In this document: positions 7,175 to 37,698 of the stretch, one piece after another
How the letters are laid out: every line of letters starts with the position of its first letter
How positions within the stretch are numbered: the first letter of the stretch is position 1
DNA from: Oceanidesulfovibrio marinus
GTDB lineage: Bacteria > Desulfobacterota > Desulfovibrionia > Desulfovibrionales > Desulfovibrionaceae
Assembly: GCF_013085545.1 (NCBI RefSeq)
Contig: NZ_CP039543.1
Span: forward strand, 1,612,001 to 1,676,000
Reading direction: 5' to 3'
DNA: 64,000 nt
Notes under the pieces: generated by a model
What the model saw: only the letters and a program-made list of their open reading frames with translations
What the model was told of the DNA's origin: nothing
The model's database searches: none
Translations under genes and position numbers: made by a program

Positions 7175-7182
7175 CCGCTATT

Positions 7183-14144: not shown

Positions 14145-14148
14145 GGGG

Positions 14149-14890: not shown

Positions 14891-14904
14891 CTGCGAGCCG
14901 GCCC

Positions 14905-15879: not shown

Positions 15880-16191
15880 GGGAACTCTCCTTGGCATTGC
15901 AGTTTTTAGGCACCATTGCCCAAATGCGTCGGGGATATGCATTGACCCAAATCGTTGAAGGCATCCCATGAATTGCATAAAATACAGAAAATATGGCGAT
16001 TTAGACCGTAAGAAGCTATTTCTCCTTACTGCCCTTTTTGTTCATATTGTTCACGGGGCAGATTGGCGGGAAATACAAAGGCAGGAGCCGCCCCGAAGCA
16101 ATACGGGACAACAACACAGACTACCCTTTGGAAAATCGGGCAGGCAGCCTGGGAGGCGGCGCTTTGGGAAGCGCCTGCGAGAAATGGACGA
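15880..16191. other. 312-base region upstream of dctP
   Basis: It lies between the response-regulator gene and dctP on the same strand, and should hold the dctPQM promoter and the regulator's binding site. The 15960-16060 part is AT-rich. I found no well-spaced sigma-54 site and no clear terminator. Confidence 0.35.
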
Positions 16192-16878
16192 TCAGACCTT
16201 GAAGTAACGGCGCTCGGGCCGGCCCACGGAGCCGTAGACCACGTCCGGCACCAGAAAGTCCACGGAGACCAGATACTCCAGATAGCGACGGGAGGTGGAG
16301 CGGCTCACACCCACGCGTGCGGCCACGTCCTCGGCAGAAAGGCCGGCGCTGGCGTCCTTGGAGTGGAACACGGCGCAGATCTTCTCCAGGGTCAGGGCGT
16401 CGATGCCCTTGGGCAGGTCTTCCTTGCCCTCGCCTATGTTCTTGGCCGCCGGCCGCAGGGAGTCCACGGTGCACTGCTCCACCACGTCCATGTGCGAAAG
16501 ACGGGAGCGGTACCAGCGGTACTTCTCCAGGCTCTCATGGAAGCGGGAGGCGATGACCGGCTTGATGATGTAATCGAACACGCCGCCGCGCATGGCCTGC
16601 CGCAGAGGAGCGACCTCCTTGGCCGCGGTGATGTAGATGACGTCCGTCTCCATGCCCTGGCCGCGGATGTGGTGCAAAAGATCCATGCTGGTACCCTCGG
16701 GGAAGTAGAGGTCGAGCAGCACCAGGTCGGGCTGCAGGGAGTCCACCATGTCCATGGCGTCGGACAGCCCCTCGGCAATGCCCGCCACGGCAAAGCCCTC
16801 CACCCGCTCCGTGAACCGGCGATGCAGATCGGCGATCCGCGGGTCGTCCTCCACAATGAGCACTCGAATCTCTTTCAT
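16192..16878 (-). CDS. Response regulator, CitB/DcuR family
   Basis: This 228-residue protein has a receiver domain (VLIVEDDPRIADLH; phospho-acceptor Asp in LVLLDLYFPEG; ITAAKEV; FDYIIKP) and a C-terminal helix-turn-helix (AEDVAARVGVSRSTSRRYLEYL). Start ATG 16878 overlaps the kinase stop (ATGA), indicating coupled translation. In this family the paired kinase senses external citrate, fumarate or similar acids and the regulator turns on transport genes. The TRAP operon directly downstream is the likely target. Confidence 0.9.
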   Translation of the reverse strand: MKEIRVLIVEDDPRIADLHRRFTERVEGFAVAGIAEGLSDAMDMVDSLQPDLVLLDLYFPEGTSMDLLHHIRGQGMETDVIYITAAKEVAPLRQAMRGGVFDYIIKPVIASRFHESLEKYRWYRSRLSHMDVVEQCTVDSLRPAAKNIGEGKEDLPKGIDALTLEKICAVFHSKDASAGLSAEDVAARVGVSRSTSRRYLEYLVSVDFLVPDVVYGSVGRPERRYFKV

Positions 16879-21396: not shown

Positions 21397-22944
21397 ATGG
21401 AACACATCATCGCTTCATTCGTCCATCTGGCCAACCCGACCGTCTTCCTCTTCCTGCTGGCAGGCGTCGCCGTGGGCCTGACCGTCGGTTCCATCCCAGG
21501 GCTCAACGACAGCATCACCCTTGCCGTGCTCATCCCGGTGACCTTTTCGATGCACCCTGACTACGCATTCCCTCTGCTGGTGGGCATCTACTGCGCGGCC
21601 TGCTACGGCGGCTCCATTCCCGCCATACTGCTGCGAATACCAGGCACGGCGTCATCGGTGGTCACAGCCCTGGATGGCTACGCCATGGCCCAGAAGGGCG
21701 AGGCCGGGCAGGCGCTGGGCATCTCCACCACCAGCTCCGTGTTCGGCGGCATCACCAGCTCCATCATCCTGCTTTTCTTCGCGCCCATCCTGGCCAGCTA
21801 CGCCCTGCGCTTCGGACCGCCCGAGTACTTCGCCCTGGCGCTGATGGGCCTCTCCACCGTGGCCGGCATGTCCGGCGGCAACATGGTCAAGAGCCTCATC
21901 GTCTGCCTCATCGGCCTGCTCATCTCCACCGTGGGCATCAGCCCTCTCACCGGCTACCCGCGCTTCACCTTCGACAGTCCCAACCTCTACGACGGCATCC
22001 CCTTCATTCCCATGCTTATCGGCCTGTTCGGCGTCACCAGCGTGCTGGAGCTTGCCGAGTCCATCTGCGAGCAGCGGCTGCGCAGCCGCGCCGGAGAGGA
22101 TGTGGAGATCAAGATTCCGCGCATCGGCCGCGTGCTGCCCAAGTGGTCCATGGTCAAGCGCCTGCTGCCCACCTGGATGATCAGCTCCGGCATCGGCAAC
22201 GTCATCGGCATCATTCCCGGCGCCGGCATGCTCATGGCCATCTACATGGCCTACGACCAGACCGCGCGGCGGCACAAAGACAAGGATTTCGGCAGCGGCG
22301 TGCCCGAAGGCGTGGCTGCGCCCGAGGCGGCGAACAACGCGGTGGTGGCCAGCTCCATGGTGCCCCTGCTCTCCCTGGGCGTGCCCGGCAACTCCACCTC
22401 GGCCCTGTTCCTGGGCGCCCTGCTCATCCAGGGTCTGCGTCCCGGCCCCGCGCTCTTCCGCGACACGCCGGATATCGCCTACCTCATCGTCGTCTCCTTC
22501 CTGGTGGCCAACATCGTCATGGCGCCCATGGGCATCTTCCTGGGCCGCACCCTCTCCCGGCTGATATTCAAGCTGCCGCGCGAGGTGCTCGGCGCTGTCA
22601 TCTCCGTGCTCTGCCTGACCGGCGCATTCGCCGTGGGCAACAGCGTCTTCAACATCTGGGTGGCCATCGGCTTCGGCGTGCTGGGCTACGTGTTCAACAA
22701 GTGCGACCTGCCCCACTCCCCGCTCATCCTGGCCGTGGTCCTGGGCGCCATGATGGAGCGCGGGCTGTTCCAGAGCCTCACGCTCTCCCACGGCTCCCTG
22801 TCGATCTTCGTCACCCGGCCCATCAGCCTGGTGCTGCTCATCGGCGCGCTCTTCTTCGTGGCCACGCCGCTCATCAAGAGCGTGTACAGGCGGCGCAAGA
22901 ACGGCAAAAACGGTAAGAACGGCGAAGGAGCGCAACATGCCTAG
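21397..22944 (+). CDS. tctA: TTT transporter large permease (TctA), operon 1
   Basis: This 515-residue membrane permease has the family hallmarks GLTVGSIPGLNDSITLAVLIP, YCAACYGGSIPAILLRIPGT, VAAPEAANNAVVASSMVPLLSLGVPGN and AVVLGAMMERGLFQSL. It is the channel of the tripartite carboxylate importer. Its end overlaps the PrpD-like gene by 8 bases, so import and metabolism are translated together. Confidence 0.93.
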   Translation: MEHIIASFVHLANPTVFLFLLAGVAVGLTVGSIPGLNDSITLAVLIPVTFSMHPDYAFPLLVGIYCAACYGGSIPAILLRIPGTASSVVTALDGYAMAQKGEAGQALGISTTSSVFGGITSSIILLFFAPILASYALRFGPPEYFALALMGLSTVAGMSGGNMVKSLIVCLIGLLISTVGISPLTGYPRFTFDSPNLYDGIPFIPMLIGLFGVTSVLELAESICEQRLRSRAGEDVEIKIPRIGRVLPKWSMVKRLLPTWMISSGIGNVIGIIPGAGMLMAIYMAYDQTARRHKDKDFGSGVPEGVAAPEAANNAVVASSMVPLLSLGVPGNSTSALFLGALLIQGLRPGPALFRDTPDIAYLIVVSFLVANIVMAPMGIFLGRTLSRLIFKLPREVLGAVISVLCLTGAFAVGNSVFNIWVAIGFGVLGYVFNKCDLPHSPLILAVVLGAMMERGLFQSLTLSHGSLSIFVTRPISLVLLIGALFFVATPLIKSVYRRRKNGKNGKNGEGAQHA

Positions 22945-24304
22945 CTCCATCTCCGATTCCCTGGCCGGGTACATCTGTTCCGTCCGCGCGGCCGATCTGC
23001 CCGAGGAAGTGACGCGTAAAGCCGGGCTTTGCGCCATCGACTACCTCGCAGCGGCCTGGAACGCCCATGGGGTCGAGCTATCCACCGCCTACACCGACTA
23101 CGCCGCATCAATGGCGGGCAAGACTATCGGTGCGGCGCACGTCATCGGCGACGGGCAGCTCCCCCCCATATGGGCCGCATTCGCCAACGCGGCCAAGGGC
23201 CACGTGACCGAGACCGACGACGGCCACCGCCAGTCCATCATGCACATCGGCGTGGTGGTCATGCCCGTGGTCCTGGCCCTGGCGCAGGAGCGCGGCCTGA
23301 GCGGCGCCGAGATGCTGGAGGCCATGATCTGCGGCTACGACCTGGCCATCCGCGCCGGCGAGTGCTTCGGCCCGGAGCATTACGCCACCTTCCACACCAC
23401 GGGCACGGCCGGCACGTTCGGCGCGGCAGCCGCCGCGGCCAAATGCTGCAAGCTCACGCATGAGCAGACGGTGTGGGCGTTGGGCCACGCCGGGACCCAG
23501 GCCGCCGGTGTCTGGCAGTTCCTGCAGGACGGCGCGGTGCGGGCCAAACCCTTCCACCCGGCAAAGGCCGTGCAGAACGGCATGCAGGCCGCCCTGCTGG
23601 CCGAGGCCGGCATCGCGGGTGCCACGCGCATCTTCGAGGGCGACAAGGGAATCTGCGCCTTTGCCGCACCCAAGCCGCGCTTCGAGGCCCTGACCGACAG
23701 ACTCGGCGAGCACTTCAAGATCTCCGAGGTCAACTTCAAGGCCTACCCCACCTGCGGCCAGACCCACAGCATGCTGGACGCCACGGCCGCGATCATGGAG
23801 CGCGAGAGCATTACCGCCGCCGACGTGAAGAGCGTGGAAGCAAACGTGTATCAGCGCGCCATCGATATCGCCGGCATTGCCGAGCCCGTGAATCTGGAGC
23901 AGGCCAAGTTCTCCAACCAGTTCTGTCTGGCCTTCCTGCTGACGCGGGGCGCACTCACATTCGCCAATTTTACAGAGGACGTCGTAGAGGACGCTGCCGT
24001 GCGCGAGCTCTCCCACCGCGTATCCTTGAAGTTCGACGCCGAGATGGACGCCGGGTTCCCGGCCAGCCGGCCGTGCCGCATCGTGGTCCGTTGCAAGGAC
24101 GGCCGCGTGCTTTCTCAAGAAAACCGCTTCCGCAAGGGCGACCCCGAGAACCCCATGTCCGCCGAAGACATGCAGGAGAAGCTGGAGCAGCTGACCGGCT
24201 CACTGCTTTCACCGTCCCAGCGACAGAACATCGTCTCCTGGGCCCTGGATCTAGAACACCGCGCGGCGGTGGAACCGTTTTTGTTCACCATTTGCGATAG
24301 CTGA
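22937..24304 (+). CDS. MmgE/PrpD family protein (possible epimerase)
   Basis: This 455-residue cytoplasmic protein belongs to the MmgE/PrpD fold (CAIDYLAAAWNAHGVELS, FANAAKGHVTETDDGHRQSIMHIG, ICGYDLAIRAGE, FHTTGTAGTFGAAAAAAK, KAYPTCGQTHSMLDA). Known members are 2-methylcitrate dehydratase and iminodisuccinate epimerase; B. subtilis YxeQ of S-(2-succino)cysteine breakdown is also in the family. It is coupled to tctA upstream and followed after 12 bases by a fumarase-superfamily lyase. The epimerase-plus-lyase pairing is known for iminodisuccinate, so stereochemical inversion of a succinyl group is a reasonable role here. Function inferred only. Confidence 0.85.
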   Translation: MPSSISDSLAGYICSVRAADLPEEVTRKAGLCAIDYLAAAWNAHGVELSTAYTDYAASMAGKTIGAAHVIGDGQLPPIWAAFANAAKGHVTETDDGHRQSIMHIGVVVMPVVLALAQERGLSGAEMLEAMICGYDLAIRAGECFGPEHYATFHTTGTAGTFGAAAAAAKCCKLTHEQTVWALGHAGTQAAGVWQFLQDGAVRAKPFHPAKAVQNGMQAALLAEAGIAGATRIFEGDKGICAFAAPKPRFEALTDRLGEHFKISEVNFKAYPTCGQTHSMLDATAAIMERESITAADVKSVEANVYQRAIDIAGIAEPVNLEQAKFSNQFCLAFLLTRGALTFANFTEDVVEDAAVRELSHRVSLKFDAEMDAGFPASRPCRIVVRCKDGRVLSQENRFRKGDPENPMSAEDMQEKLEQLTGSLLSPSQRQNIVSWALDLEHRAAVEPFLFTICDS

Positions 24305-24316
24305 CGAGGAATAGCC

Positions 24317-25699
24317 ATGTCCCATATCATTGATTCGGAATTCTACGGCGGTAGCTGGTGCACGCCTGAGATGCGCGAGGTCTTCGACGACCGCAAACGC
24401 TACCAGCGCTGGCTGGACATCGAGGTCGTGCTGGCCGGAGTGCAGGCCGGGCTGGGCGTCATCCCCAAGGAGGCGGCCGCCGAGATCAAGGCCAAGGCCC
24501 ACGTCGAGGAGCTCGACACCGACTTCATCAAGGACGAGCTGGCCAAGACCGGCCACTCCCTGGTGCCCCTGCTCAAGGCCGTGCAGAAGCGCTGCGAGGG
24601 CAACCTGGGCGAGTACATCCACTACGGCCCCACCACCCAGGACATTGAGGACACCGGCGGTGTGCTGGAGATGAAGGACGCCTCCAAGCTGATCTTCCGC
24701 GACCTGGCCAAGCTCGAATCCACCCTGCTCAAGCTGTCCGCCAGGTACGAGTCCTTCCCCATGGCCGGACGCACCCACAACCAGCAGGGCCTGCCCATCA
24801 CCCTGGGCCTGAAGTTCGCCAACTGGGCGGCCGAGCTGCGCCGCGGCATGGAGCGCGTCAAGGACATGCAGAAGCGCGTGTTCGTGGGCATGCTCCACGG
24901 CGGCACCGGCACAATGGCCGGCCTGGGCGAGCAGGCCTACCCCACGGCAGAAGCCGTCATGAAGGAGCTGGGCCTTGCCCTGCCCCCCACGGGTTGGGGC
25001 AGCGCACGCGACATCGTGGCCGAGTACCAGACCGTGCTGGGCCTGCTGGCCGGCACCGTCGGCCGCATCGCCAACGAGATATTCCAGCTCGCGCGCACCG
25101 AGATCGGCGAGTTCCAGGAGCCCCTGGGCGAGCACTACGTGGGCAGCAGCACCATGCCGCACAAGCGCAACCCCGAGGTCACGGAGTTCGTGGTGGCCAT
25201 GACGCGCGTGGTCATGAGCAACGTGCAGCTCGCTCTGCAGTCCATGGTGGCGGAACACGAGCGCGACACCCGCGCCTGGCGGCTCGACTGGCACTCCATT
25301 CCCGAGAGCAGCATGATGCTGCACAAGGCCCTGTCCGCGCTGGTCTTCGTGGTGGACGGCCTGGTCATCGACGAGGCGCGCATCACCGAAAACCTGGACA
25401 TGCTCCACGGCATGCTTTTTTCCGAGGCGCTTATGTTCCAGCTGGGCAAGAAGGTGGGCAAGCAGACCGCGCACCATCTGATCCGCGACACCATCCTGGC
25501 CGCCACGGCGCCCAAGGGAAAGACCTTCCGCGAGCTGCTGTTCGAGAACCCGGATATCGCGGCCAACCTGACAAAAGACGAGCTGAACGAGCTCATGGAT
25601 TACTCCAAGCACATCGGACAATCGGTGCGCCAGGTGCACGACGTCATCGCTACGGCCAAAACGCTGGGCGCGACCGACGAGGAGTTTTTACAATGTTGA
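24317..25699 (+). CDS. Fumarase/aspartase-superfamily lyase (adenylosuccinate/argininosuccinate lyase-like)
   Basis: This 460-residue enzyme carries the superfamily signature GSSTMPHKRNP (residues about 277-287), the HYGPTTQDIEDT segment and the AGRTHNQQGLPITLGLKFA segment. Members cleave C-N or C-S bonds of succinyl compounds to release fumarate. Adenylosuccinate lyase proper is unlikely, because the gene sits in a catabolic operon with a TTT importer, an MmgE/PrpD protein and a cysteine desulfidase. S-(2-succino)cysteine lyase or an N-substituted aspartate lyase are the leading options. GAGGA precedes the start. Confidence 0.88.
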   Translation: MSHIIDSEFYGGSWCTPEMREVFDDRKRYQRWLDIEVVLAGVQAGLGVIPKEAAAEIKAKAHVEELDTDFIKDELAKTGHSLVPLLKAVQKRCEGNLGEYIHYGPTTQDIEDTGGVLEMKDASKLIFRDLAKLESTLLKLSARYESFPMAGRTHNQQGLPITLGLKFANWAAELRRGMERVKDMQKRVFVGMLHGGTGTMAGLGEQAYPTAEAVMKELGLALPPTGWGSARDIVAEYQTVLGLLAGTVGRIANEIFQLARTEIGEFQEPLGEHYVGSSTMPHKRNPEVTEFVVAMTRVVMSNVQLALQSMVAEHERDTRAWRLDWHSIPESSMMLHKALSALVFVVDGLVIDEARITENLDMLHGMLFSEALMFQLGKKVGKQTAHHLIRDTILAATAPKGKTFRELLFENPDIAANLTKDELNELMDYSKHIGQSVRQVHDVIATAKTLGATDEEFLQC

Positions 25700-25794
25700 G
25701 ACAACGTTCCAGTGCGCAGGATGACGGGGCGTGTTGCCCTGGCCAGTCCACCTCGCACACAGGCCAGCCTCTCTGCGCGGCCAAGGAGACAGAT

Positions 25795-27075
25795 ATGGAT
25801 CTGCACGAATTTTTCGCCAATGAAGTGAAGCCGGCCATGGGCTGTACCGAGCCGGTGGCTGTGGCCCTTGCCGCGGCCTACGCCGCCAGGGAGTTCGAGG
25901 GTGAGATCGAGTCCATCGACCTGGACGTCTCGCTGAACATCTACAAGAACGGCCGCGACGTGGGTATTCCCGGCGCCATGGGCCAGCGCGGCAACCGCAT
26001 CGCCGTGGTCCTGGGCGCGCTGGCCGGCGACGCGGACAAGGGTCTGCTGGTGCTGGAAGGCATTCCGGAGACCGTTGTGGAAAAGGCCAAGGCCATGGTG
26101 GACGCCGGCGTGGTCAATGTCAGCGTGCGCGACGAAGGTCCCAGCATTTACGTGGCCGTCACCCTGCGCAACGCGGACTGCGAGGTCTGCGCCGTGGTCC
26201 AGGACCGGCACGATACGCTACGGAAGGTGACCAAAAACGGCCAGGTGGTCTTTGACAAGCCGGCGACCGAGGCCAAAAGCAAGGCCGGGCTGCCACCCTA
26301 CCTGGAAGAGCTCATGACTCTCGGCATCCAAGAGCTGTGGGATCTGGCGAGCTCCATCGACAAGGATCTCGAAGGTTACATGCTCGAAGGCGTGCAGATG
26401 AACATGGGCGTAGCCAATCAGGGGCTGGAAGGCTCCTGGGGCCTGGGCGTGGGAGCCACCCTGGCGGAGCACAAGGACAACTCCGGCCTGCTGGCCACCG
26501 TGAAGAAGCTGGCAGGCGCCGCCGCGGATGTGCGCATGTCCGGCAAGTCCGCCGCAGTGATGAGCAGCGCAGGCAGCGGCAACCACGGCATCACCGCCAT
26601 CATTCCCGTGGCCGTGGTGGGCGAGGCCGTGGGCGCTCCCCAGCGCCTCATCGCCGAGTCCGTGGCCTTCAGCCATCTGGTGACCGGCTATGTGAAGACC
26701 TACACCGGCCGGCTGACCCCCATCTGCGGGTGCTCCGTGGCTGCCGGAGCAGGCGCGGCCGCCGGCATGGTGCGCGTATTGGGCGGTACCCCGGACATGG
26801 CCGAACACGCCGTGGCCTCGCTCATCTCCTCACTCATGGGCATGCTCTGCGACGGGGCCAAGGGCTCCTGCGGTCTCAAGGTCTCGGCCGCCGCCGGCGA
26901 AGCGTACGCCGCCGCGCTCATGGCCATGGACAAGCGTGGCGTGCAGCAGGACGAAGGACTGGTCTCCCCGGACATCCGCACCACGTGCCTGGCGTTGTCC
27001 AAGCTGTGCACCAAGGCGTTCTCCAACACGGACAAGGTCATCGTGGAGCTGTTGCAGCTCCGGCCCGACAGCTAG
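25795..27075 (+). CDS. CyuA/UPF0597 family, L-cysteine desulfidase-like Fe-S enzyme
   Basis: This 426-residue protein belongs to the UPF0597 (YhaM/CyuA) family, which is related to L-serine dehydratase alpha subunits and includes L-cysteine desulfidase, giving pyruvate, ammonia and sulfide. Conserved cysteines likely to hold an Fe-S cluster lie in VKPAMGCTEPVAVALA, PICGCSVAAGAG and KGSCGLKVSAA; the glycine-rich SSAGSGNHGITAIIP is also typical. The start is ATG 25795 with AAGGAGA upstream. It is the last gene of the operon; if the lyase upstream frees cysteine, this enzyme would complete its breakdown and RidA would clear the 2-aminoacrylate. Confidence 0.88.
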   Translation: MDLHEFFANEVKPAMGCTEPVAVALAAAYAAREFEGEIESIDLDVSLNIYKNGRDVGIPGAMGQRGNRIAVVLGALAGDADKGLLVLEGIPETVVEKAKAMVDAGVVNVSVRDEGPSIYVAVTLRNADCEVCAVVQDRHDTLRKVTKNGQVVFDKPATEAKSKAGLPPYLEELMTLGIQELWDLASSIDKDLEGYMLEGVQMNMGVANQGLEGSWGLGVGATLAEHKDNSGLLATVKKLAGAAADVRMSGKSAAVMSSAGSGNHGITAIIPVAVVGEAVGAPQRLIAESVAFSHLVTGYVKTYTGRLTPICGCSVAAGAGAAAGMVRVLGGTPDMAEHAVASLISSLMGMLCDGAKGSCGLKVSAAAGEAYAAALMAMDKRGVQQDEGLVSPDIRTTCLALSKLCTKAFSNTDKVIVELLQLRPDS

Positions 27076-28810: not shown

Positions 28811-29162
28811 GTCCATATCCCCCCTGGATGGAACCAATGCCCTCGAATGCGGCTGGAATTGGACGAAACCACTGCGGAGCGGCGTTCCCCCGAATACCGA
28901 CTCGATTGTGCCACACTATAGTCATATCAGCTAACAATAACAAGACATTCGTCCAGTCCGGCCAAAGCGCCGCTGTCACTGACTTAGATCCGGCAACGCA
29001 GCGGAGCCTACGGGAACGTATCGATGTGGCCAATACGCAGGATGCTTCGGCATGGAGATGCATGCGCCTTGGCACCGGAGGCTCAAAAACTAACTCCCGG
29101 CGATCAGGATGAACAGAGGGATAACTGCGATCCGAGTGGGGTCGTCAGGAAACAGGAAGGGC
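28811..29162. other. 352-base intergenic region
   Basis: It lies between the end of the aldolase-ended operon and the start of the hypothetical gene, both on the minus strand. It should contain the terminator of the first and the promoter of the second. No strong hairpin with a T-run or coding frame was seen. Confidence 0.35.
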
Positions 29163-29927
29163 TCAGCGCAGGGCGTAGGAACGCATCAGCTCGCTCACGG
29201 TCCTGCGTACGGCGTCGTACATCGGGTCGAGGCCGTTGGGGAAGGATTCGGCGGCTTGCGACGGGGTCTGGCGCACGCCTTCTGCCAGGGCGCGGTCCAG
29301 CTCGGAGTGGGCGTTGATCTTGGCTACGCCGACACGGATGGCGGCGGTCCGCTGGTCCGGGGTGAGCTTGCTGGCCCCGTGCAGCACCAGACCGGCGCCA
29401 AGGCCGGCCAGCGCCTCGATGATTCCGGCGTGAAACGGCCAGTGCGCCGGCACGGACACTGCGAGCCAGTCCACGCCGGTGCGGGCCACGAAGTCCCGCG
29501 CCTCGTCCAGGGAGAAGACGCCGAGCGGGCCGATCTCCCCTTCTATCTCCACGCCGTGGGCATGGGCCGCCTGCACGCATTCACGTGTTCTGGTGATGTT
29601 CGATTCCAGATCCAGGGCCGAGCCGTCGAACATGACAGAGGTGCAGCCGGCGTCCAGGGCGGCCAGCACCTCGCCCAGGGACCGGCCATGATTGAGATGC
29701 ACCGCCACGGGCATGGCTGTCTTGCCCGCGGCGGTGCAACATGTGGAGGACAACGTCTGGAAATCCACATCAGGCGTGTAGCCGATGCAGAGGGCGGCCG
29801 GGAGTCCGGTCTCCTGGGCGGCGGCGATGATCGCCTCCACACAGCCCCGGTCCCGTGCGGCAAAGCAGCCGAAAGCTTTGCCGGAACCGACGGCGGCCCG
29901 GAGATCGGACAACCCGGCCTGGGTCAT
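29163..29927 (-). CDS. Class II fructose-bisphosphate aldolase family protein (GatY/KbaY-like)
   Basis: This 254-residue barrel protein is of the zinc aldolase family. It has the VHLNHG metal motif (H77 and H80), TSVMFDGSALDLESN, EGEIG, and a later LHGASKL histidine. In typical class II aldolases the first motif reads H-x-D-H, with the Asp as catalytic acid; here it is Asn79, so chemistry may differ. It is the last gene of the larA-like/suyAB-like/TTT operon and is coupled to tctB (one-base overlap). It may cleave a product of the dehydratase or lyase upstream. Substrate unknown. Confidence 0.8.
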   Translation of the reverse strand: MTQAGLSDLRAAVGSGKAFGCFAARDRGCVEAIIAAAQETGLPAALCIGYTPDVDFQTLSSTCCTAAGKTAMPVAVHLNHGRSLGEVLAALDAGCTSVMFDGSALDLESNITRTRECVQAAHAHGVEIEGEIGPLGVFSLDEARDFVARTGVDWLAVSVPAHWPFHAGIIEALAGLGAGLVLHGASKLTPDQRTAAIRVGVAKINAHSELDRALAEGVRQTPSQAAESFPNGLDPMYDAVRRTVSELMRSYALR

Positions 29928-30379
29928 CAGCTTGCCTCGAAGAAGGAGCCGGACGGCAGCGGCACCATGAGGAACTCTTTGAAGATGAAGTAGAACATCG
30001 TTACCACGACAACAGCCAAACCGGCGCTCACCAGGATGTTGCGCGTCGTCAGTCCTTCCTCACCCAGATACAGCGTCATAACGGTGAAGAAGAGGAAGCT
30101 GGACGGCAGGAACCCGAGAAACGGCATGATGGCCAGGTAGATAATGAGAATGACCAGGCCCACGACGACGTTGTTCCGCTCCGTGACGGAGGTGAAGAAC
30201 TCGACCCGTTCCGGCTTGATGAAGCCCTTGATCAGCTCCAGCACGGCCAGGGCCACGAACACCGTCAGGCAGTAGTTGACGAAGATGCCGCCCAGTTTGC
30301 TGAGGTCACGAGTGGCGAAGAAGATGACCGCCGCGATGACCAGCGACGCACTGCCGATGAGAATGTCGGAGTTAAGCAT
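29927..30379 (-). CDS. tctB: TTT transporter small membrane subunit (TctB), operon 2
   Basis: This 150-residue four-helix membrane protein (SASLVIAAVIFFATRDLSKLGG, VGLVILIIYLAIMPFLGFLPSSF, YFIFKEFLMVPLPSG) is of the TctB type. It overlaps tctA by 8 bases upstream and the aldolase by one base downstream, so all are translated together. Here tctB follows tctA, the reverse of the order in the other TTT operon. Confidence 0.85.
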   Translation of the reverse strand: MLNSDILIGSASLVIAAVIFFATRDLSKLGGIFVNYCLTVFVALAVLELIKGFIKPERVEFFTSVTERNNVVVGLVILIIYLAIMPFLGFLPSSFLFFTVMTLYLGEEGLTTRNILVSAGLAVVVVTMFYFIFKEFLMVPLPSGSFFEAS

Positions 30380-31922
30380 TCTTCACACCCTCCTCGATAT
30401 TGCAGGCGCAGCCTTCCCGCCGCTGTTTCCTTTTGTGTTTCCACGATGCGTAAATGGGCCACAGGGCGGAGAGCAGCGAGAGCGTGATAAGCACGATGCT
30501 GATGGGCCGGAAGACCATATAATGCACCACGCTGCCGGTCGCGTGACCTGCGAGCATGGACTGGACGAGCCCTTCCTCGACGAACGGTCCCAGGATCAGT
30601 CCCAGGACAATGGGCGCGGGGTGGAACTTCAGCTTGTTGGAGATGAAGCCGACCACGCCGAAGATCAGCATGATCCAGACGTCCAGCATGTTGTTGCGGA
30701 TGGCGTAGGAGCCAAGCACCGTCATGAAGATGATGACCGGAGCGAGGAACCTGGAGGGAATGTTGATGATCCGCGAGAATACGAAGGAGCCGAAGCAGCC
30801 GATGATGGTGACAAAGAACGCCGCCACGAGCAGGGCCATCATGAAGGCGTAGACAACCTGGCCGTGCACGGTGAAGAGCTCGCCGCCGGGGCGCATGCCG
30901 TGGAGCATGAGCGCGCCGAGGATAACCGCGGCCGGGGGAGAGCCGGGGATGCCCAGGGTGAGCAGCGGAACCAGCGAGCCGGGAGCCATGGCGCTGTTGG
31001 CAGCCTCACTGGCCGCCACGCCCTTGATGGTTCCCTTACCAAATTCTTCAGGGTTCTTGTCCCATCGACATGCTTCGTTGTAGGATACCATACTGGCGAT
31101 GTTGCCGCCTGCGCCAGGAGCAAAGCCGACCACGGTGCCGATGAACGCCGAACGGAACATGAGCACAGGCTTCTTGAACAGAGAACTCATGACCTCCCAG
31201 ACAACGGAGAGCTCCGGCTTGGCGTTTTCAGACGAGTACTTGGCCTGGCGCTTGCCGATGACGCTGCCCAGGATCTCGGGCAGGCAGAAGAAGCCGATGA
31301 GCGCGACGATGAGCTCGATGCCGGCCTGCATTTCAGGATGACCGAAGGTGAGCCGCACGTCGCCGCCGATGGGCGCCATGCCGATGGTGGACAGCAGAAG
31401 ACCCAGCGCGCCGGCCAGGAACCCTTTGAGCACGGAGCCCGTGGACAGGGTGGCGATGATGGTCAGGCCGAAGACGCCGAGCCAGAAATATTCGGGGGGA
31501 CCGAACTTGAGGGATGCGGCGGCAAGGGGGGGCGCCGCAGTAAGCAGCACGATGTTTGCAACAAGGCTGCCGAAAGACGAGGCGACCGCGGCGGCCACCA
31601 GCCCGTGCTGGGCCATGCCTTTCTGAGAAAGCGGGAACCCGTCAAAGCTGGTGGCGATAGCCGCCGGGGTTCCAGGTGTGTTGATAAGAATCGCGGGTAC
31701 CGCGTCGCCATACATTGCACCGACATAGATGCCTGCGAGCATGATGAGGCCTGCGGTCGGAGCCATCGTGAAAGTAAACGGCACCAGTAGCGCGAGTCCC
31801 ATCGTCGCAGTCAAGCCGGGCAGGGCGCCGAAAACGATGCCCGCGAACACACCGATAAAGAGGAAGAGCAAATTAGCCGGAACGAACACGTGTTCCAGGC
31901 CTGCGACGGCAAGATCGAACAT
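30372..31922 (-). CDS. tctA: TTT transporter large permease (TctA), operon 2
   Basis: This 516-residue permease has the TctA pattern GIVFGALPGLTATMGLALLVPF, YVGAMYGDAVPAILINTPGTPAA, AASEAANSAMAPGSLVPLLTLGIPGSPPAAV and LGLILGPFVEEGL. It transports the ligand of the TctC encoded just upstream. It is clearly a different paralog from the one at 21397-22944, consistent with a different substrate. Confidence 0.93.
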   Translation of the reverse strand: MFDLAVAGLEHVFVPANLLFLFIGVFAGIVFGALPGLTATMGLALLVPFTFTMAPTAGLIMLAGIYVGAMYGDAVPAILINTPGTPAAIATSFDGFPLSQKGMAQHGLVAAAVASSFGSLVANIVLLTAAPPLAAASLKFGPPEYFWLGVFGLTIIATLSTGSVLKGFLAGALGLLLSTIGMAPIGGDVRLTFGHPEMQAGIELIVALIGFFCLPEILGSVIGKRQAKYSSENAKPELSVVWEVMSSLFKKPVLMFRSAFIGTVVGFAPGAGGNIASMVSYNEACRWDKNPEEFGKGTIKGVAASEAANSAMAPGSLVPLLTLGIPGSPPAAVILGALMLHGMRPGGELFTVHGQVVYAFMMALLVAAFFVTIIGCFGSFVFSRIINIPSRFLAPVIIFMTVLGSYAIRNNMLDVWIMLIFGVVGFISNKLKFHPAPIVLGLILGPFVEEGLVQSMLAGHATGSVVHYMVFRPISIVLITLSLLSALWPIYASWKHKRKQRREGCACNIEEGVKNA

Positions 31923-31961
31923 TAGACCTCCCGGAAGTGAATCTCACTTTCCATGCAGATA

Positions 31962-32003
31962 TCCGGCAGGAGGGGCCATCCACCAGGACGGCCCCCTGCC
32001 GGA
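31962..32003 (-). terminator. Hairpin between tctC and tctA, operon 2
   Basis: TCCGGCAGGAGGGGCC (31962-31977) pairs, with small bulges, with GGCCCCCTGCCGGA (31990-32003). There is no T-run on the coding (minus) side. It occupies the same place, after a binding-protein gene, as the hairpins of the other three importers. Confidence 0.6.
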
Positions 32004-32018
32004 CTTTTATCGGGTACT

Positions 32019-32969
32019 CTACTTCTTGAACTTCTCCACAACAGGCTTCCAGTCTTCAACCTTCTGCTGGATGTACTCAGCGGCTTGCTGCGCATCCAAG
32101 GCCATGGGGACAAAGCCGTCCCGGAGCATTTGCTCCTGCACCTTGGGATCATTGGCGATCTTCAGGAAAGCGTCCTGGAGCACCTTGATCTTCTCATCCG
32201 GGGTTCCGGGAGGGGCACCGGCGCCACGGTCAATGGAAGCGTAGAGGTTGTAGCCCAGCGACTCAAAGGTGGGGACATCGGGCATGGGAGCGAAAGGCTC
32301 CTTGGTGCCGAAGGCCAGTACACGGAGCTTGTCCGCGTGCTGATACAGGTCGTTGGAGTTACCCCACAGAGCCTGAACGTGGCCGCCCAGGAACGCGGCC
32401 ACTGCGGGCGCGGCGCCCTTGTAGGGAACGTACGTGGTCTCGATGCCGGCCTTTTCCTGCAGCTGCAGGTTGGCGATGTGGTGACCGGACCAGGTGCCGG
32501 AGCCGCCCGTAACCACGGCGCCGGGGTTGGCTTTGGCGTACTGGATCAGGTCATCCAGAGTCTTGAACTGCGAATCCTTGAGTACGGCGAGCCCGATCGG
32601 AGTGGTCTGGAAGAAAGCGATGGGCTTGATCTGGGAGGTCTCGAATCCCGCGTTGCCGCGCGCCAGAGGCTGGAGCACGATGTGCGGCACGTTGATACCG
32701 GCGATGGTGTAACCGTCCGGCTTGGAGCGGGTGAGCTCCGCCCAACCAACGGAACCGCCGCCGCCCGGCTTGTACTGAATGATGACGCTGGTGCCGAGAA
32801 TGTCTTCCAACATCGGCTGCTGACGGCGCGCCTCGAGGTCGGACTGACCACCCGGGTTAAAGGGAATCGTGTAGGTGATAGGTTCGGAAGGATAATCCTC
32901 AGCATGAGCAATGAGGCCCAGACCGAGCACCAGTGAGAATGCCAAGGCCATGACTATGAGTTTTTTCAT
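32019..32969 (-). CDS. tctC: TTT transporter binding protein (TctC/Bug family), operon 2
   Basis: This 316-residue periplasmic protein has the signal peptide MKKLIVMALAFSLVLGLGLI (cleavage after AHA). The Bug pattern is YPSEPITYTIPFNPGGQSDL, then YKPGGGGSVGWAELTRSKPDGYT. The start 32969 follows an AGGAGAG site. The acidic residue common at the ligand loop of amino-acid-type Bug proteins cannot be judged by eye. Its operon suggests sulfolactate or an aldonate as ligand. Confidence 0.92.
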   Translation of the reverse strand: MKKLIVMALAFSLVLGLGLIAHAEDYPSEPITYTIPFNPGGQSDLEARRQQPMLEDILGTSVIIQYKPGGGGSVGWAELTRSKPDGYTIAGINVPHIVLQPLARGNAGFETSQIKPIAFFQTTPIGLAVLKDSQFKTLDDLIQYAKANPGAVVTGGSGTWSGHHIANLQLQEKAGIETTYVPYKGAAPAVAAFLGGHVQALWGNSNDLYQHADKLRVLAFGTKEPFAPMPDVPTFESLGYNLYASIDRGAGAPPGTPDEKIKVLQDAFLKIANDPKVQEQMLRDGFVPMALDAQQAAEYIQQKVEDWKPVVEKFKK

Positions 32970-33082
32970 GGTCCACTCTCTCCTATGGGCTAGGGTTTGA
33001 TGCAATCCGCCATACTTCCCAATAAAGCAGGCAGTTCCTCCGGCGAATGACTGCTGGAGGAACTGCACTTACTACTAAACTT

Positions 33083-34246
33083 TTAAGCGCTCCGGTAGAG
33101 CTTGGTCATAATGAACTCCCGATGTTTCAGAGCTTCCTGCGCAGTCATACGGCCGTTGCAGGTACGACGGAGCATATCGAGAAGATTGTCGCCGGATTCC
33201 TCCAGGGTCATCTCGCCGCGGAGGATGGCGGAGCAGTCGTAGTCGATGTGCTCGCTCATGTCTGAAGCAGTGTTCGGGTTGGCTGTCAGCTTGATCACCG
33301 GCTCGATGGGGTTGCCGATGATGTTGCCCTGCCCCGTGGGGAAGAAATGGGCCACGAAGCCGGCAGCTGCGCACAAAGTGACCATCTCGGCCGCAGCGGA
33401 CGACGAGTCCATGAACCAGAGGCCGGGGCCGGTGGGAGCCTCGGCAGGTTCCAATACGCCGACGTACCTGGCTTTCTTGCCGATCTTCTGCAAGTTGCCG
33501 AACGCCTTTTCCTCAATGGTGGTCAGGCCGCCCTTGATGTTGCCCTTGGTGGGCTGGGAGCCGGACAGGTCGTCAGTTTTGTACTCGTTGATGAAATCGT
33601 TGTACGCCTTCCAGGTTTGATAGAACTTCTCGCCGATCTCGGGGGTGGCGGCGCGCTCCTTGGCCACCATCTCTGCGCCGGTGATCTCGCTGGTCTCGCC
33701 GAAGCAGCAGGTCGCGCCGGCTTCCACCAGTTTGTCGATGGCGGCGCCCACGGTGGGGTTGGAGGCAAGACCGGAGGTGGTGTCGGACTCGCCACACTTC
33801 ACGCTGACCCAGACCTCGGACAGGTCCACGTCCTCGGTCTGCAGCTCGGAGGCCCACTGTGCGTACTCTTTGGCCTTCTTGGAGGCTTCCATGATGGTCT
33901 TGTGGTCGCCATTGCGCTCGATGGAGAAGCCGGTCACGGGCTTGCCGGTCTCGGCGATGCCGTCCACGATGATAGAGGTCCACTCCGGCTCGATACCGAT
34001 GACAACGACGGCGGCGACGTTGGGATTGGAGCCTATGCCGATGAGAGTCCGGAAAAGAAGCATGAGGTCTTCGCCGAACTGCAGACGACCATACGCATGG
34101 GGGAGCGCGATGGTGCCGTGGATATTGTTGGCCACGGCCTCGCTGGCTGCGTTGGAAAGGTCGTCCAGGGGCAGAATCGCAACATGGTTGCGGATGCCCA
34201 CCCGTCCATTCTCGCGTCTGTATCCTTTTACTTTTCCAAGACCCAT
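33083..34246 (-). CDS. UxaA/GarD-family large subunit, best match (2R)-sulfolactate sulfo-lyase beta (SuyB)-like
   Basis: This 387-residue protein begins [20 protein letters not shown], the family's NGRxGVRN motif, and contains [19 protein letters not shown] and [17 protein letters not shown]. The family holds altronate and galactarate dehydratases and SuyB, which with SuyA splits (2R)-sulfolactate to pyruvate and sulfite. E. coli UxaA is one chain with several conserved cysteines; here the SAF part is separate and those cysteine positions near HAYGRLQFG and VIGIEPEW are replaced, which favours SuyB. An aldonate dehydratase remains possible. Upstream, the small subunit ends 4 bases before this start. 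Confidence 0.75.
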
Positions 34247-34250
34247 AGTC

Positions 34251-34529
34251 TTACCACCTCTTGGTCTTGAGATTCTGGGTGTGCACGTGGTCGCCCTTCT
34301 TGATGGAGGATACGACCCGGCCGATGTCGTGGCCGTACTTGATCACGGCATCGTCCGCATTGTGGTCGACCATTGCAATCTTATGACCAAGTGGAATGTC
34401 GTCGTTGGCCTGCACCTCGGTCGGTTGCTGGGTGTCCATGTACAGGCCCTTGACGCTCTCGCCAGCCTTGATGTCCACCGTGGCCACGCCAACAGAATCG
34501 GCTTTCTCGTGAACGAGAAATTGAATCAT
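34251..34529 (-). CDS. SAF-domain small subunit (SuyA-like / UxaA N-terminal domain)
   Basis: This 92-residue SAF domain corresponds to the N-terminal domain of altronate dehydratase and to SuyA. Hallmarks are [30 protein letters not shown] and the end [17 protein letters not shown] precedes ATG 34529. It pairs with the large subunit encoded next. The separate-subunit layout is that of (2R)-sulfolactate sulfo-lyase, with split sugar-acid dehydratases as the alternative. Confidence 0.75.
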
Positions 34530-34572
34530 CCTGACCTCCGTTTGAGTAATTCTTAAGGCCCTCGTGTTACGA

Positions 34573-35850
34573 CTATTCTCCGGAACCGCCCCCGGACGCG
34601 AGGGTGAAGTACGTAGCGTTCGCATTGGGCACCACACCCACGCGAACACGTCCTTCAAACGACTTCAGCCAGCTATCGATGCGCTCCTGCGGATCGGCTT
34701 TGGTCATCATGCAGCTTCCCAGAACCGATTGGTCGAGCTCCGTGGCCACGGCCACCTCGAACGCGTTCAGTGTCCGGCTGAAAAGGAACGCCTTGTGGGC
34801 GCCCATTCGAAAACCGTTCTGCTTGAAGTCTTCAAACACCTCGACAGGCTCGTCGAACCGACAGACATACTCGAAGTAGTCCTCGTCCCCGATCCCCTGG
34901 CCGCAGGATGCGAGCAGCAGAATCTTGCCGCCGGGCTCTGCCGCGCGCGAGGAGAGGTTCAGCCCTTTTTGCGCCTGGTACAGGCAGATGTCCTTGGGAT
35001 GGCCGCCGCAGGAGGCGATGACGATGTCGTACTGATGCTCGATGGTGACGCCGTAAACCGAAGCGCAGACCTCGGCGCCGGCAGCCAGTACGGCCTCGGG
35101 ATTGCCAGCCCACAGACCAACTACCTGCTTGTTCTTGTCCAGGACCACGTTCACGGCCAGGTACACCCCGGCCATGCGGCCCATCTCGTTGAGGTCCTCG
35201 CGCACCGGGTTGCCTTCGCGCACGCCGGCCTGGGCCTTCTCGTGGAACATCAGAGCGTGGTTGCCCTGGATGGTCTTGGCCCCGGCGCAGCCCACAGCCA
35301 TGCCCTTGGCTCCACCCGTAAAGCCGGCGAACTGGTGCGGGTCCAGAAGGCCCATGACGATCTTCATGTCACCGTCGGCAAAGGCCTTGTTGACGAACAC
35401 GGGCGTGCCGCGGCTCGTGTTGCCGTAGTCCGTCATGGGCGCCCGCTTGGCGTCGTGCGGTACGACGGTGTAGTCGGCCAGGACCTCTTCGGGCAGGATG
35501 CGCTCCAGCGCCTCCCTGTCGTGAGGCGGATGCAGCCCGCCGCCGACCACGATGGTCACGTCCTCGGGGCGTAGCGACGGATAGGCGCGGTGCAGACGCG
35601 CGAGAAGCAGCGGCAGGAGAGTCTTGGTGGGGAACGGACGAGTCTCGTCCGGTACGGCTATTGAGACTGAGGCCGGGGCGGCGCGCTCTTCCAATCGGGG
35701 AAGCTGGAGCGGGCGGTCGAGCGCGCCGTCCATTGCCTCAGCCAGATCCTCGATCAACGGGAGGGAGGTCGGTTCCAGAACATCGACCTCGGCTTGATCG
35801 GGGAACACTAAAGTCTTTTTTGAATGGCCATATTTGAGCGTGATATCCAT
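34573..35850 (-). CDS. LarA-family nickel-pincer racemase/epimerase homolog
   Basis: This 425-residue enzyme belongs to the LarA superfamily of nickel-dependent 2-hydroxyacid racemases and epimerases. All key sites are present: PDETRPFP (D68, R71), GGGLHPPH (H107), DPHQFAGFTGGAKG (H172 and K182, the lysine that bears the cofactor in LarA) and QGNH (H198). These match L. plantarum LarA D72, R75, H108, H174, K184 and H200. As first gene of a sigma-54-controlled operon with SuyAB-like subunits and a TTT importer, it probably inverts C2 of the imported hydroxyacid. Sulfolactate is my preferred substrate; an aldonate is the alternative. The larCEB genes in this window can supply its cofactor. Confidence 0.88.
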   Translation of the reverse strand: MDITLKYGHSKKTLVFPDQAEVDVLEPTSLPLIEDLAEAMDGALDRPLQLPRLEERAAPASVSIAVPDETRPFPTKTLLPLLLARLHRAYPSLRPEDVTIVVGGGLHPPHDREALERILPEEVLADYTVVPHDAKRAPMTDYGNTSRGTPVFVNKAFADGDMKIVMGLLDPHQFAGFTGGAKGMAVGCAGAKTIQGNHALMFHEKAQAGVREGNPVREDLNEMGRMAGVYLAVNVVLDKNKQVVGLWAGNPEAVLAAGAEVCASVYGVTIEHQYDIVIASCGGHPKDICLYQAQKGLNLSSRAAEPGGKILLLASCGQGIGDEDYFEYVCRFDEPVEVFEDFKQNGFRMGAHKAFLFSRTLNAFEVAVATELDQSVLGSCMMTKADPQERIDSWLKSFEGRVRVGVVPNANATYFTLASGGGSGE

Positions 35851-35880
35851 GAATTCCTCGCTGGTTTCAGTTTTCTATGA

Positions 35881-35895
35881 GCAATGCATGTGCCA
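35881..35895 (-). promoter_or_regulatory. Sigma-54 (-24/-12) promoter of the larA-like operon
   Basis: The minus strand reads TGGCACATGCATTGC, exactly the TGGCAC-N5-TTGC consensus with 10 bases between GG and GC. It lies 31 bases upstream of the larA-like start codon. Confidence 0.88.
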
Positions 35896-35946: not shown

Positions 35947-36004
35947 GCCCAATAATCGGCATCGCCGCGGTGCCCAATACCGGGCATTTTGCCCAATATT
36001 GGTC
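35947..36004. promoter_or_regulatory. Three GCCCAATA-type enhancer sites for the sigma-54 activator
   Basis: GCCCAATAATCGGC (35947-35960), GCCCAATACCGGGC (35972-35985) and GCCCAATATTGGTC (35991-36004) are direct copies of an imperfect palindrome. They lie about 50-125 bases upstream of the -24/-12 promoter, the normal range for an enhancer-binding protein. Confidence 0.75.
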
Positions 36005-36139
36005 TTGATCGCGTCTTTTTTCTGTCATACGGTTGTAACACCCGTGGTTGCTGGGATAAGCCCTTTTTTCCCCAACTCCACATCGGCATAGTATGTTTTG
36101 AGCATTAAAAAAACTTAACAAGAACGGCACAATAAACGT

Positions 36140-36153
36140 GCCCAATATTCGGC
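36140..36153. promoter_or_regulatory. Fourth GCCCAATA site, at the activator's own start
   Basis: GCCCAATATTCGGC ends 6 bases before the activator start codon, so binding there would block its own transcription or translation start, giving negative autoregulation. Confidence 0.65.
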
Positions 36154-36159
36154 GACCAA

Positions 36160-37698
36160 ATGCACCTCAATCCAGCCACCCGCTATCAGGTCCTGCTCAC
36201 CATCAACAACGCCCTGGTCAACCAAACCACCCGTGACAGCCTCTTCAAAGCCCTGGCCGGTGAGCTCGGCAAGATCTTCGAGTTCGACCGCCTTTCCATC
36301 AATCTTTACGACGAGTTCCAAGGATCACTGAGCTACTTCGCCACGGCCGAGGGCATCACCCCGGAGGCCATCGAGGGCGATTCCCGGCCCCTGGCCCAGG
36401 GCTCCATCGCCAAGACAGTGATCCGCTCGCGCGAGCCCCTGGTCATACCCGACCTGCGCAAGCACACCTACTGGCCTTCCGTGCAGGCCATGGTGAACGC
36501 CGGCCTCAATGCGACCATGGCGTTCCCACTCATCACCCGCGGCAACGTGGTGGGCTCCATGCACCTCTCCTTCCGCACGCCGCCGGAGCACATGGAGGAG
36601 CTGGCTGGATTCCTCAATGTACTTTCCGGACAGTTGGCCATCGCCGTGGACAACATGCTGGCCCACAGCCAGCTGACCGCCCTGAACCGCAGGCTCCAGC
36701 TGCAAAAGGACTTTCTCCTCAAGCAGTCGGAGAACATCTACGATCCCGAGAGCTTCTTCTACGTATCCACTGCCATGCGCAGCGTTATGGGCCAGATACA
36801 GATGATCTCGGAGACGGACGCCTCCGTGCTCGTCACCGGGGAGACCGGCACAGGAAAGGACTACGTGGCCCGCTACATCCACTCGCTCAGCCCGCGGCAG
36901 TCCAGCTTGTTCGTCAAGGTGAACTGCCCCGGCCTGGCCTCCACCCTGTTTGAGAGCGAGCTCTTCGGCCATGCCAAAGGCGCATTCACAGGCGCCCACG
37001 CAAAGCGTGTGGGCCGGTTCGAGATGGCCGCCGGGGGCACGCTGTTTCTGGACGAGATTGGCGACCTGCCCCTGCCGCAGCAGGCCAAGCTGCTGCACGT
37101 TCTCCAGGACAGGACCTTCGAGCGGGTGGGCGACAACCAGCCCATCCAGGCGGATTTCAGGGTCATCGCCGCCACGAACAAGGATCTGGAGCAGGCCATC
37201 CGCGACGACGAGTTCCGCGAGGACCTCTTTTACAGGTTGAACACCCTCTCCCTGCACATCCCGCCGCTGCGGGAACGCAATGACGACATCCCCCTGTTAC
37301 TCGACCGGCTGTCGACTGCAGAGTCCGTTTCCCTCAACCGCCCTGCACCGGAGTTCAGCGCCGAGGCCGTGGAGATACTGCTCCACTACCCGTGGCCCGG
37401 CAACGTGCGCGAGCTGAAGAACCTGGTGAAACGATTGATCATCCTCCATCCGGGCAAAACCATCGGCGCAGGTATTGTGGAGGGCATGCTGCAGCCCGAG
37501 CAGACCGAGGAAAACTCGCTGTGCCGCTTCCCTTCCCTGGCCGAGATGGAAAAACGGCACATCGAAAAGGCCTTGGCCCTGGCCGGCGGGAAGGTGGGCG
37601 GACCCTGCGGCGCGGCAAAACTTCTGGGCATTCCCCGCTCCACCCTGCAGTACCGCATGAAAAAGCATGGCGTTGAAACCGCCGTGGCAGGCGCTTGA
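36160..37698 (+). CDS. Sigma-54-dependent activator, GAF-AAA+-Fis type (FhlA/NorR-like)
   Basis: This 512-residue activator has an N-terminal GAF sensor domain (about residues 20-170), an AAA+ domain with Walker A GETGTGKD, the sigma-54-contacting GAFTGA loop, Walker B GGTLFLDEIGDL, and a C-terminal Fis-type helix (GAAKLLGIPRSTLQYRMKKHG). It is divergent from the larA-like operon, whose promoter is of the -24/-12 type, and GCCCAATA sites sit between them. It is therefore the likely dedicated activator, sensing the imported acid or a product through the GAF domain. Confidence 0.93.
   Translation: MHLNPATRYQVLLTINNALVNQTTRDSLFKALAGELGKIFEFDRLSINLYDEFQGSLSYFATAEGITPEAIEGDSRPLAQGSIAKTVIRSREPLVIPDLRKHTYWPSVQAMVNAGLNATMAFPLITRGNVVGSMHLSFRTPPEHMEELAGFLNVLSGQLAIAVDNMLAHSQLTALNRRLQLQKDFLLKQSENIYDPESFFYVSTAMRSVMGQIQMISETDASVLVTGETGTGKDYVARYIHSLSPRQSSLFVKVNCPGLASTLFESELFGHAKGAFTGAHAKRVGRFEMAAGGTLFLDEIGDLPLPQQAKLLHVLQDRTFERVGDNQPIQADFRVIAATNKDLEQAIRDDEFREDLFYRLNTLSLHIPPLRERNDDIPLLLDRLSTAESVSLNRPAPEFSAEAVEILLHYPWPGNVRELKNLVKRLIILHPGKTIGAGIVEGMLQPEQTEENSLCRFPSLAEMEKRHIEKALALAGGKVGGPCGAAKLLGIPRSTLQYRMKKHGVETAVAGA

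Follow-up and report, generated by a model that had tools for sequence, protein, structure and literature searches.

How a bacterium might use both enantiomers of sulfolactate, a common sulfonate of the sulfur cycle, with a sulfo-lyase (SuyAB) that is described as (2R)-specific is the question raised by an operon of Oceanidesulfovibrio marinus, which lies within the 64,000-nucleotide (nt) stretch of contig NZ_CP039543.1 analyzed here (positions 1,612,001 to 1,676,000; hereafter the window). The operon consists of seven closely spaced minus-strand genes, which extend from 35850 to 29163 in the order larA-suyA-suyB-tctC-tctA-tctB-class II aldolase. The gaps from larA through tctA are 43, 4, 113, and 96 nt, while tctA/tctB and tctB/aldolase overlap. 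This order and these coordinates are as given in an earlier note on this DNA, and the families assigned by Pfam hidden Markov models agree. On the sequence evidence presented below, it is likely that the LarA homolog encoded by the first gene is a one-enzyme, redox-neutral sulfolactate racemase, which would feed SuyAB within an operon that also encodes a tripartite tricarboxylate transporter (TTT).

The large subunit groups with SuyB

The suyB product (387 aa; 33083-34246, minus strand) matches the Pfam domains GD_AH_C with 284 bits and GD_AH_second with 117 bits (PF20629/PF04295). It is 68-82% identical to the 80 SuyB loci that were kept from 327 confirmed relatives in genome_contigs. Among plasmid records, 13 of 316 stand at 60-80% identity to SuyB, and the next among the matches listed is at 39.6%. 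A Cupriavidus pinatubonensis locus in which hpsN and hpsO are annotated belongs to these near records, as does a Methylobacterium locus carrying two oxidoreductases, one NAD(P)-dependent and one of the Ldh family, read here as SlcC and ComC types.

The earlier note had set the comparison of the large subunit with sugar-acid dehydratases as a check beforehand. In a SuyB tree of 61 rows, the window protein falls inside a 50-row clade with 100/100 support, together with the SuyB of the Cupriavidus hpsN-suyAB locus, and the UxaA and GarD proteins of E. coli lie outside, across a stem of 1.53 changes. The tree was built on 56 hand-chosen loci, with the clade member L026 entered twice (two readings of one gene) and with several outside rows on long branches. 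The GarD model TIGR03248 gives the large subunit 149 bits against a cut-off of 731, which leaves it outside that family. Directly upstream of suyB, with a gap of 4 nt, lies a gene for a separate small SAF-domain subunit (suyA, 92 aa; 34251-34529, minus strand; PF08666 with 25.7 bits, scored on a version longer by two codons), and SuyA homologs of 41-83% identity are found upstream of SuyB in most of 82 loci. The clade placement together with the separate SAF subunit supports the assignment of the two-subunit enzyme as the (2R)-sulfolactate sulfo-lyase SuyAB.

The genome holds two SuyAB copies of different branches. The tree neighbors nearest to the window SuyB are from SAR324 and Desulfobacterales, with none from its own family, and the second SuyB of the genome (L093; genomic coordinates 1588219-1589367) clusters with L031 and L060. 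Given this placement of the two copies, lateral acquisition of the window operon is a possibility. The second suyAB is clustered (L093, 1704-9371) with a gene for a HIBADH/sulfolactaldehyde-reductase superfamily dehydrogenase and with genes that, by a look at the sequence only, resemble those of tripartite ATP-independent periplasmic transporters. This cluster resembles the 2,3-dihydroxypropane-1-sulfonate degradation of Desulfovibrio sp. DF1 (DhpA, SlaB, SuyAB), in which SuyAB likewise occurs in a sulfite respirer; no LarA was seen in the available parts of PMC6278857, where it was not specifically searched for. In Nitratidesulfovibrio oxamicus (L036, 1864-5816), suyAB is found in tandem as two near-identical copies.

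The LarA homolog belongs to the LarAH5 class

The larA product (425 aa; 34573-35850, minus strand) matches Lar_N (PF09861, 169 bits) and LarA_C (PF21113, 49 bits). It scores 575 bits on the NCBIfam model of LarAH5 (NF052595, cut-off 462), 370 bits on the LarAH6 model, and 31 bits on the hexonate epimerase model (cut-off 500). Alignment with Mar2 (LarAH6, PDB 6d6z) identifies, in window numbering, D68, R71, H107, H172, K182, H198, Q292, and K295. Each of the cofactor residues (R71, K182, H198) and of the catalytic residues (H107, H172, K295) is thus present, which bears out what the earlier note had seen. The larCEB genes that it mentioned were located in the same window, at ~5.7-9.0 kb on the plus strand and all above their cut-offs. 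These are larC, for nickel insertion (matched stretch 5732-7147; TIGR00299 226 bits, cut-off 90; NF052512 138 bits, cut-off 50), larE, for sulfur insertion (7174-7998, start approximate; TIGR00268 314 bits, cut-off 150), and larB (8188-8967; NF033503 293 bits, cut-off 175). By its domains, its residues, and the accompanying larB, larC, and larE, the larA product is assigned to the LarA superfamily.

The window LarA shares with Mar2 the superfamily, the cofactor residues, and the GAHK motif, which is H352-K353 in the window protein; in Mar2, the lysine of this motif is presumed to contact the second carboxylate of malate (PMC7583248). The two proteins differ in the residues that follow the catalytic histidine, Y-K in Mar2 versus Q-F in the window LarA and in the LarAH5-clade rows other than L013 (Q-Y) and L202 (Q-I); they match with 225 bits (phmmer) and fall in separate clades. 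The resulting HQF loop was considered as a mark of sulfolactate specificity, and was dropped because Bacillota LarAH5 proteins without SuyAB carry it too. Mar1 of Desulfitobacterium hafniense, the LarAH5 reference enzyme, was compared through the family model and papers; it has in common with the window LarA the NCBIfam family, the cofactor and catalytic residues, and the GxHK motif. Mar1 racemizes malate and not 2-hydroxyglutarate (PMC7583248, PMC11770544), whereas the context of the window operon points to sulfolactate. The KM of Mar1 for L-malate is 55 mM, and its authors considered that malate is perhaps not the native substrate, with tartrate and 2-hydroxysuccinamate as candidates (PMC7583248); the tartrate activity was termed promiscuous in a 2024 paper (PMC11770544). 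The word sulfolactate is absent from the main text of both papers.

LarA and SuyAB are linked in two phyla

LarA is present in 15 of the 80 SuyB loci, in every case on the strand of SuyB and 47-6143 bp away from it (upstream in 7, downstream in 8). This rate is descriptive and does not come from a random sample, as the loci were retrieved through SuyB and many contigs are short; for the latter reason, the absence of a neighbor means little on such contigs. Among the linked LarA proteins scanned, those of L060, L011, L036 (from Nitratidesulfovibrio oxamicus), L082 (from Desulfovibrio cuneatus), L156, L157, and L019 score above the LarAH5 cut-off; the L036 and L082 organisms are in culture.

An unselected sample of 395 genomes from the own phylum contains SuyB (E<=1e-100) in 18, a close LarA in 9, and both in 6. 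In all six genomes with both, LarA and SuyB lie on one contig, at most 11 kb apart, and the co-occurrence has a Fisher p of 2.8e-7 with kinship ignored. A close LarA is one with at least 337 bits, the next score being 224, and the class was fixed after this gap had been seen. The second sample, likewise unselected, comprises 398 genomes of Bacillota, the phylum that includes G395, a Halanaerobiaceae genome in which L031 lies. Here LarA (E<=1e-80) was found in 8, all of them above the LarAH5 cut-off, SuyB in 21, and both in 3, and in each of these three the genes are neighbors (p=0.006). Two of the Bacillota loci run suyA-suyB-larA-tctB-tctA-tctC in one direction, and the third is divergent, with GntR-like and ComC-type genes in between. 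The loci of genome_contigs and the whole-genome sample overlap (e.g., L040/G372, L021/G315), and their counts are not independent.

The 31 LarAH5 rows of the LarA tree fall in one clade with 100/100 support; 23 of them are SuyAB-linked, and the starred branches cannot be reconciled with fewer than four changes of the linkage label, either gains or losses. The first LarA tree omits the duplicates L114 and L129 and repeat loci (L001-L004, L122-L128, L130, and others), and the second also omits L131, L135, L142, L145, L150, and L151, which are partial or distant. Taken together, the SuyB clade, the LarAH5 family, whose assigned substrate malate is a close analogue of sulfolactate, and a linkage that recurs in Desulfobacterota and Bacillota favor sulfolactate, as the earlier note had proposed, over the aldonate that it gave as a competing reading.

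A LarA of another class was also found beside SuyAB. At L163, one run of genes (13110-16643) holds a small transaldolase-like gene, the other-class LarA (199 bits on the LarAH6 model, cut-off 500), suyA, and suyB. Here LarA stands directly upstream of suyAB and adjoins the transaldolase-like gene, whose score on the model of fructose-6-phosphate aldolase is 196 bits (cut-off 246). By sequence, this locus is perhaps an independent recruitment of a nickel racemase in a sulfosugar pathway.

Comparison with the SlcC/ComC pair

The described route for using (S)-sulfolactate with SuyAB relies on the dehydrogenases SlcC and ComC, which act together as a racemase (PMC12421959, PMC9594981, PMC10507020). 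In Taurinivorans muris, a related sulfite respirer, (2S)-sulfolactate passes through SlcC and ComC to the (2R) form before SuyAB, and slcC and comC are encoded with slcHFG and up-regulated on racemic sulfolactate (PMC10507020). Given this conversion ahead of SuyAB, a racemization step is needed. The SlcC/ComC systems of Chromohalobacter, Paracoccus, and Taurinivorans have in common with the window operon the same net job, the SuyAB partner, and a TTT importer, SlcHFG (PMC12421959, PMC5812351, PMC10507020). The difference is that, in the window operon, a single nickel enzyme would take the place of the two dehydrogenases, and that the genome has no close SlcC. The importer of the window consists of the solute-binding protein TctC (32019-32969; PF03401, 172 bits), the large membrane subunit TctA (30372-31922; PF01970, 485 bits), and the small membrane subunit TctB (29927-30379; PF07331, 47 bits), all on the minus strand. 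Its order, with tctB after tctA and beside sulfolactate genes, matches that of SlcHFG (PMC5812351), a likeness that is known here from gene order.

SlcC and ComC types are found jointly beside SuyAB in none of the 15 LarA loci, compared with 15 of the 65 others (p=0.031, from one among several tables tried). The idea that LarA and SlcC strictly exclude each other was considered and rejected, given that SlcC alone occurs in 1 of 15 versus 17 of 65 loci (p=0.09; p=0.24 in 31 full-length loci). Twelve of the 395 genomes have SuyB and no close LarA. Both dehydrogenase types lie near SuyAB in four of these (G321, G282, G315, and G138; G282 has two SuyBs, and only one is so flanked), G013 has a different LarA, and the other seven show neither arrangement within the stretch read (a short contig for G094).

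No SlcC is encoded in the window operon, and the best SlcC-like protein in the whole genome reaches 126 bits at 38% identity, compared with 165-625 bits for the proteins called SlcC beside SuyAB. The single Ldh_2 protein of the genome, encoded far from the operon, matches the ComC query with 177 bits at 42.5% identity, versus 194-346 bits for six ComC-type neighbors of SuyAB. The NCBIfam sulfolactate dehydrogenase model (cut-off 500) decides nothing on ComC because all five ComC-type SuyAB neighbors tested miss its cut-off (160-277 bits; the Ldh_2 protein has 249).

Several observations weigh against the assignment of sulfolactate as the substrate of the window LarA. To our knowledge, sulfolactate activity is known for none of these LarA proteins. 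The exclusion of LarA by SlcC alone is non-significant (p=0.09), three LarA loci carry a ComC-type gene, and the Ldh_2 protein of the genome could, by its sequence, be a ComC. The SlcC and ComC queries are themselves Methylobacterium proteins named by family and neighborhood, and not proven enzymes. Three of the nine close-LarA genomes of the own phylum are without SuyB at E<=1e-100; in two of them, LarA is followed by tctC and tctA, with no SuyAB in the stretch examined, and the third has its LarA at the end of a contig, where an activator of the same type is divergently encoded. Likewise, five of the eight Bacillota LarAH5 genomes have no SuyB hit at E<=1e-100. Since there are LarAH5 genomes without SuyB, the LarAH5 family does not share one substrate throughout. 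The HQF...GxHK signature extends over all of LarAH5 and is not peculiar to its SuyAB-linked members. At L013, the linked LarA (273-1520) misses the LarAH5 cut-off (404 bits) and is without equivalents of the catalytic H108 and the cofactor-binding R74 of Mar2. Finally, the class II aldolase, described below, is an accessory gene that has no place in the sulfolactate scheme.

Control region of the operon

A site of the form TGGCAC-N5-TTGC, which we take to be the sigma-54 consensus, lies 30 nt upstream of larA on the minus strand (35881-35895). It is the sole exact match in the window, and at least one match was obtained in 28 of 100 shuffles, for which reason its weight rests on its location. 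The end of the operon region that the earlier note had placed at 35895 is the edge of this site (35895-35881), whereas larA itself starts at 35850. Divergent from the operon is a gene for a sigma-54 enhancer-binding activator (36160-37698, plus strand), with a PF00158 domain (227 bits), a GAF domain, and a Fis-type helix-turn-helix. The interval from the sigma-54-type site to the activator gene contains three copies of TATTGGGCA (35971-35979, 35990-35998, and 36139-36147, minus strand), which are possible activator sites. The window contains four copies in total, compared with a shuffle mean of 0.34, and four were reached in none of 100 shuffles.

Homologs of the activator are divergent from a SuyAB-type operon in 19 of the 86 loci examined, including L083, for which the reading frame taken is doubtful. 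Five of these loci have copies of TATTGGGCA in the interval that separates the regulator from the operon, namely two apiece in L010, L015, and L021 and one apiece in L016 and L020; the other 14 of the 19 have none there. The first recognized operon gene opposite the activator homolog is suyA in 13, larA in 4, and of slcC type in 2. This indicates that the regulator type accompanies SuyAB operons whatever their racemization genes.

At the other end of the operon, a pattern scan gave a terminator-like stem-loop 3' of the aldolase (29095-29109, minus strand). Near the operon, no RNA element reached its gathering score, and candidate sigma-70 promoters were set aside, as matches were no commoner than chance.

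Alternative substrates

It is conceivable, albeit unlikely, that the LarA of the window is a true malate racemase, with the TTT system importing malate or a related dicarboxylate as electron donor, SuyAB supplying sulfite as acceptor, and the genes merely co-regulated. The NCBIfam name of the LarAH5 family, malate racemase, is in line with this, some LarAH5 genes adjoin TTT genes without SuyAB, and both Mar1 and LarAH62 act on malate (PMC7583248, PMC11770544). Against it stand the 55 mM KM of Mar1 for malate (PMC7583248), the repetition of the SuyAB linkage in two phyla, and a seven-gene run without malic enzyme or malate dehydrogenase. The genome has, moreover, four LarA proteins over the Pfam cut-off, two of them, besides that of the window, of malate type. 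One of these (L094, 6205-8741; 1676204-1678740 in the genome, just right of the window) is encoded directly after a malic enzyme homolog. It scores 450 bits on the LarAH6 model, below the cut-off of 500, and stands in the LarA tree on the Mar2 side, with weak support; it is likely a malate racemase near LarAH6. The other has 551 bits on LarAH6 and groups with Mar2 (100/95). The window LarA is not on that side of the tree. These two proteins are better malate candidates than the window LarA, the native substrate of which is probably not malate.

The class II aldolase homolog (29163-29927, minus strand) bears on the remaining alternatives. It matches PF01116 with 148 bits, and alignment with 1rv8 places an Asn at the Asp of the HLDHG motif (HLNHG). 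This Asp, which we take to be catalytic in class II fructose-bisphosphate aldolase, is thus missing from the window protein, which at 254 aa is also shorter than the solved aldolases listed (at least 284 aa). The gene was considered as a core member of the operon, an idea that was dropped since at E<=1e-25 it is found in only 2 of the 395 phylum genomes, one of them that of the window. Among 82 SuyB loci, relatives occur only in L031 and L060. Class II aldolase homologs with LNH for LDH are thereby found beside SuyAB at three loci (window 29163-29927, L031 2052-2843, and L060 from ~11.2 kb).

A scheme in which this aldolase releases another 3-substituted lactate or a larger sulfonate, LarA sets the C2 stereocenter, and the SuyAB-like pair cleaves the product would use every gene, and the relatives beside SuyAB in L031 and L060 are consistent with it. 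The scarcity of the aldolase, both in the phylum and among the SuyB loci, and the position of the large subunit within the SuyB clade make this scheme improbable. Least probable is the competing reading of the earlier note, an aldonate pathway of import, 2-epimerization by LarA, UxaA-type dehydration, and aldol cleavage, which would also use all genes, aldolase included, and for which a TTT system for galactarate/glucarate offers a precedent (PMC5812351), but which is contradicted by a large subunit in the SuyB clade and not with UxaA/GarD, by the low scores on the GarD (149 vs 731 bits) and hexonate-epimerase (31 vs 500 bits) models, by a regulator of the type found with SuyAB operons, and by the lack of a kinase among the seven genes.

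Neighboring genes

Elsewhere in the window, a row of plus-strand genes (21397-27075) encodes a TTT-like subunit, recognized by a look at the sequence only, an MmgE/PrpD protein, a lyase of the fumarase/aspartase superfamily, and a serine dehydratase alpha (SDH_alpha) protein. The lyase gives 469 bits to XcbD 3-sulfopropionylcysteine synthase (cut-off 600). As a guess, this row may take up and epimerize a succinylated amino acid, for example S-(2-succino)cysteine, and cleave its C-S or C-N bond.

Proposed pathway and its implications

From the gene content, the family and clade memberships, the residues, and the recurrent linkage, we infer the substrate, the direction, the import specificity, and the regulation of a sulfolactate pathway as follows. 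The TTT system, which has the slcHFG gene order, would import sulfolactate (3-sulfolactate). LarA, carrying the nickel-pincer cofactor made by larCEB, would then interconvert the (2S) and (2R) forms. In this reaction a hydride would move from C2 to the cofactor and back, H107 and H172 would serve as acid/base, and H352-K353 of the GAHK motif would hold the sulfonate in place of the second carboxylate of malate. SuyAB would split the (2R) form into pyruvate and sulfite, the pyruvate providing carbon and electrons and the sulfite going to DsrAB. The genome contains dsrA (653 bits, cut-off 393), which suggests that sulfite can act as electron acceptor. In this way, one redox-neutral enzyme would do the combined job of SlcC and ComC, and the divergent activator would drive expression from the sigma-54 promoter.

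A literature search, which most subscription papers lay outside of, returned no paper that links LarA or nickel-pincer enzymes with sulfolactate. In the available parts of the sulfolactate papers, the word racemase, where shown, refers to SlcC/ComC or belongs to the title of a 2010 Chromohalobacter paper. A broader proposal, which we hold tentatively and with slightly more doubt than belief, is that the SuyAB-linked LarAH5 branches are sulfolactate racemases that arose several times, once from another LarA class (L163), and that Mar1 is likewise a sulfolactate and not a malate racemase.

If the sulfolactate assignment is true, it would connect nickel with the respiration of organosulfonates and the formation of sulfide, and would give a native substrate to a LarA branch whose reference enzyme has a KM of 55 mM. 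It would also provide a single-enzyme counterpart of SlcC/ComC and, within the literature searched, a new substrate and a new pathway step for nickel-pincer enzymes.

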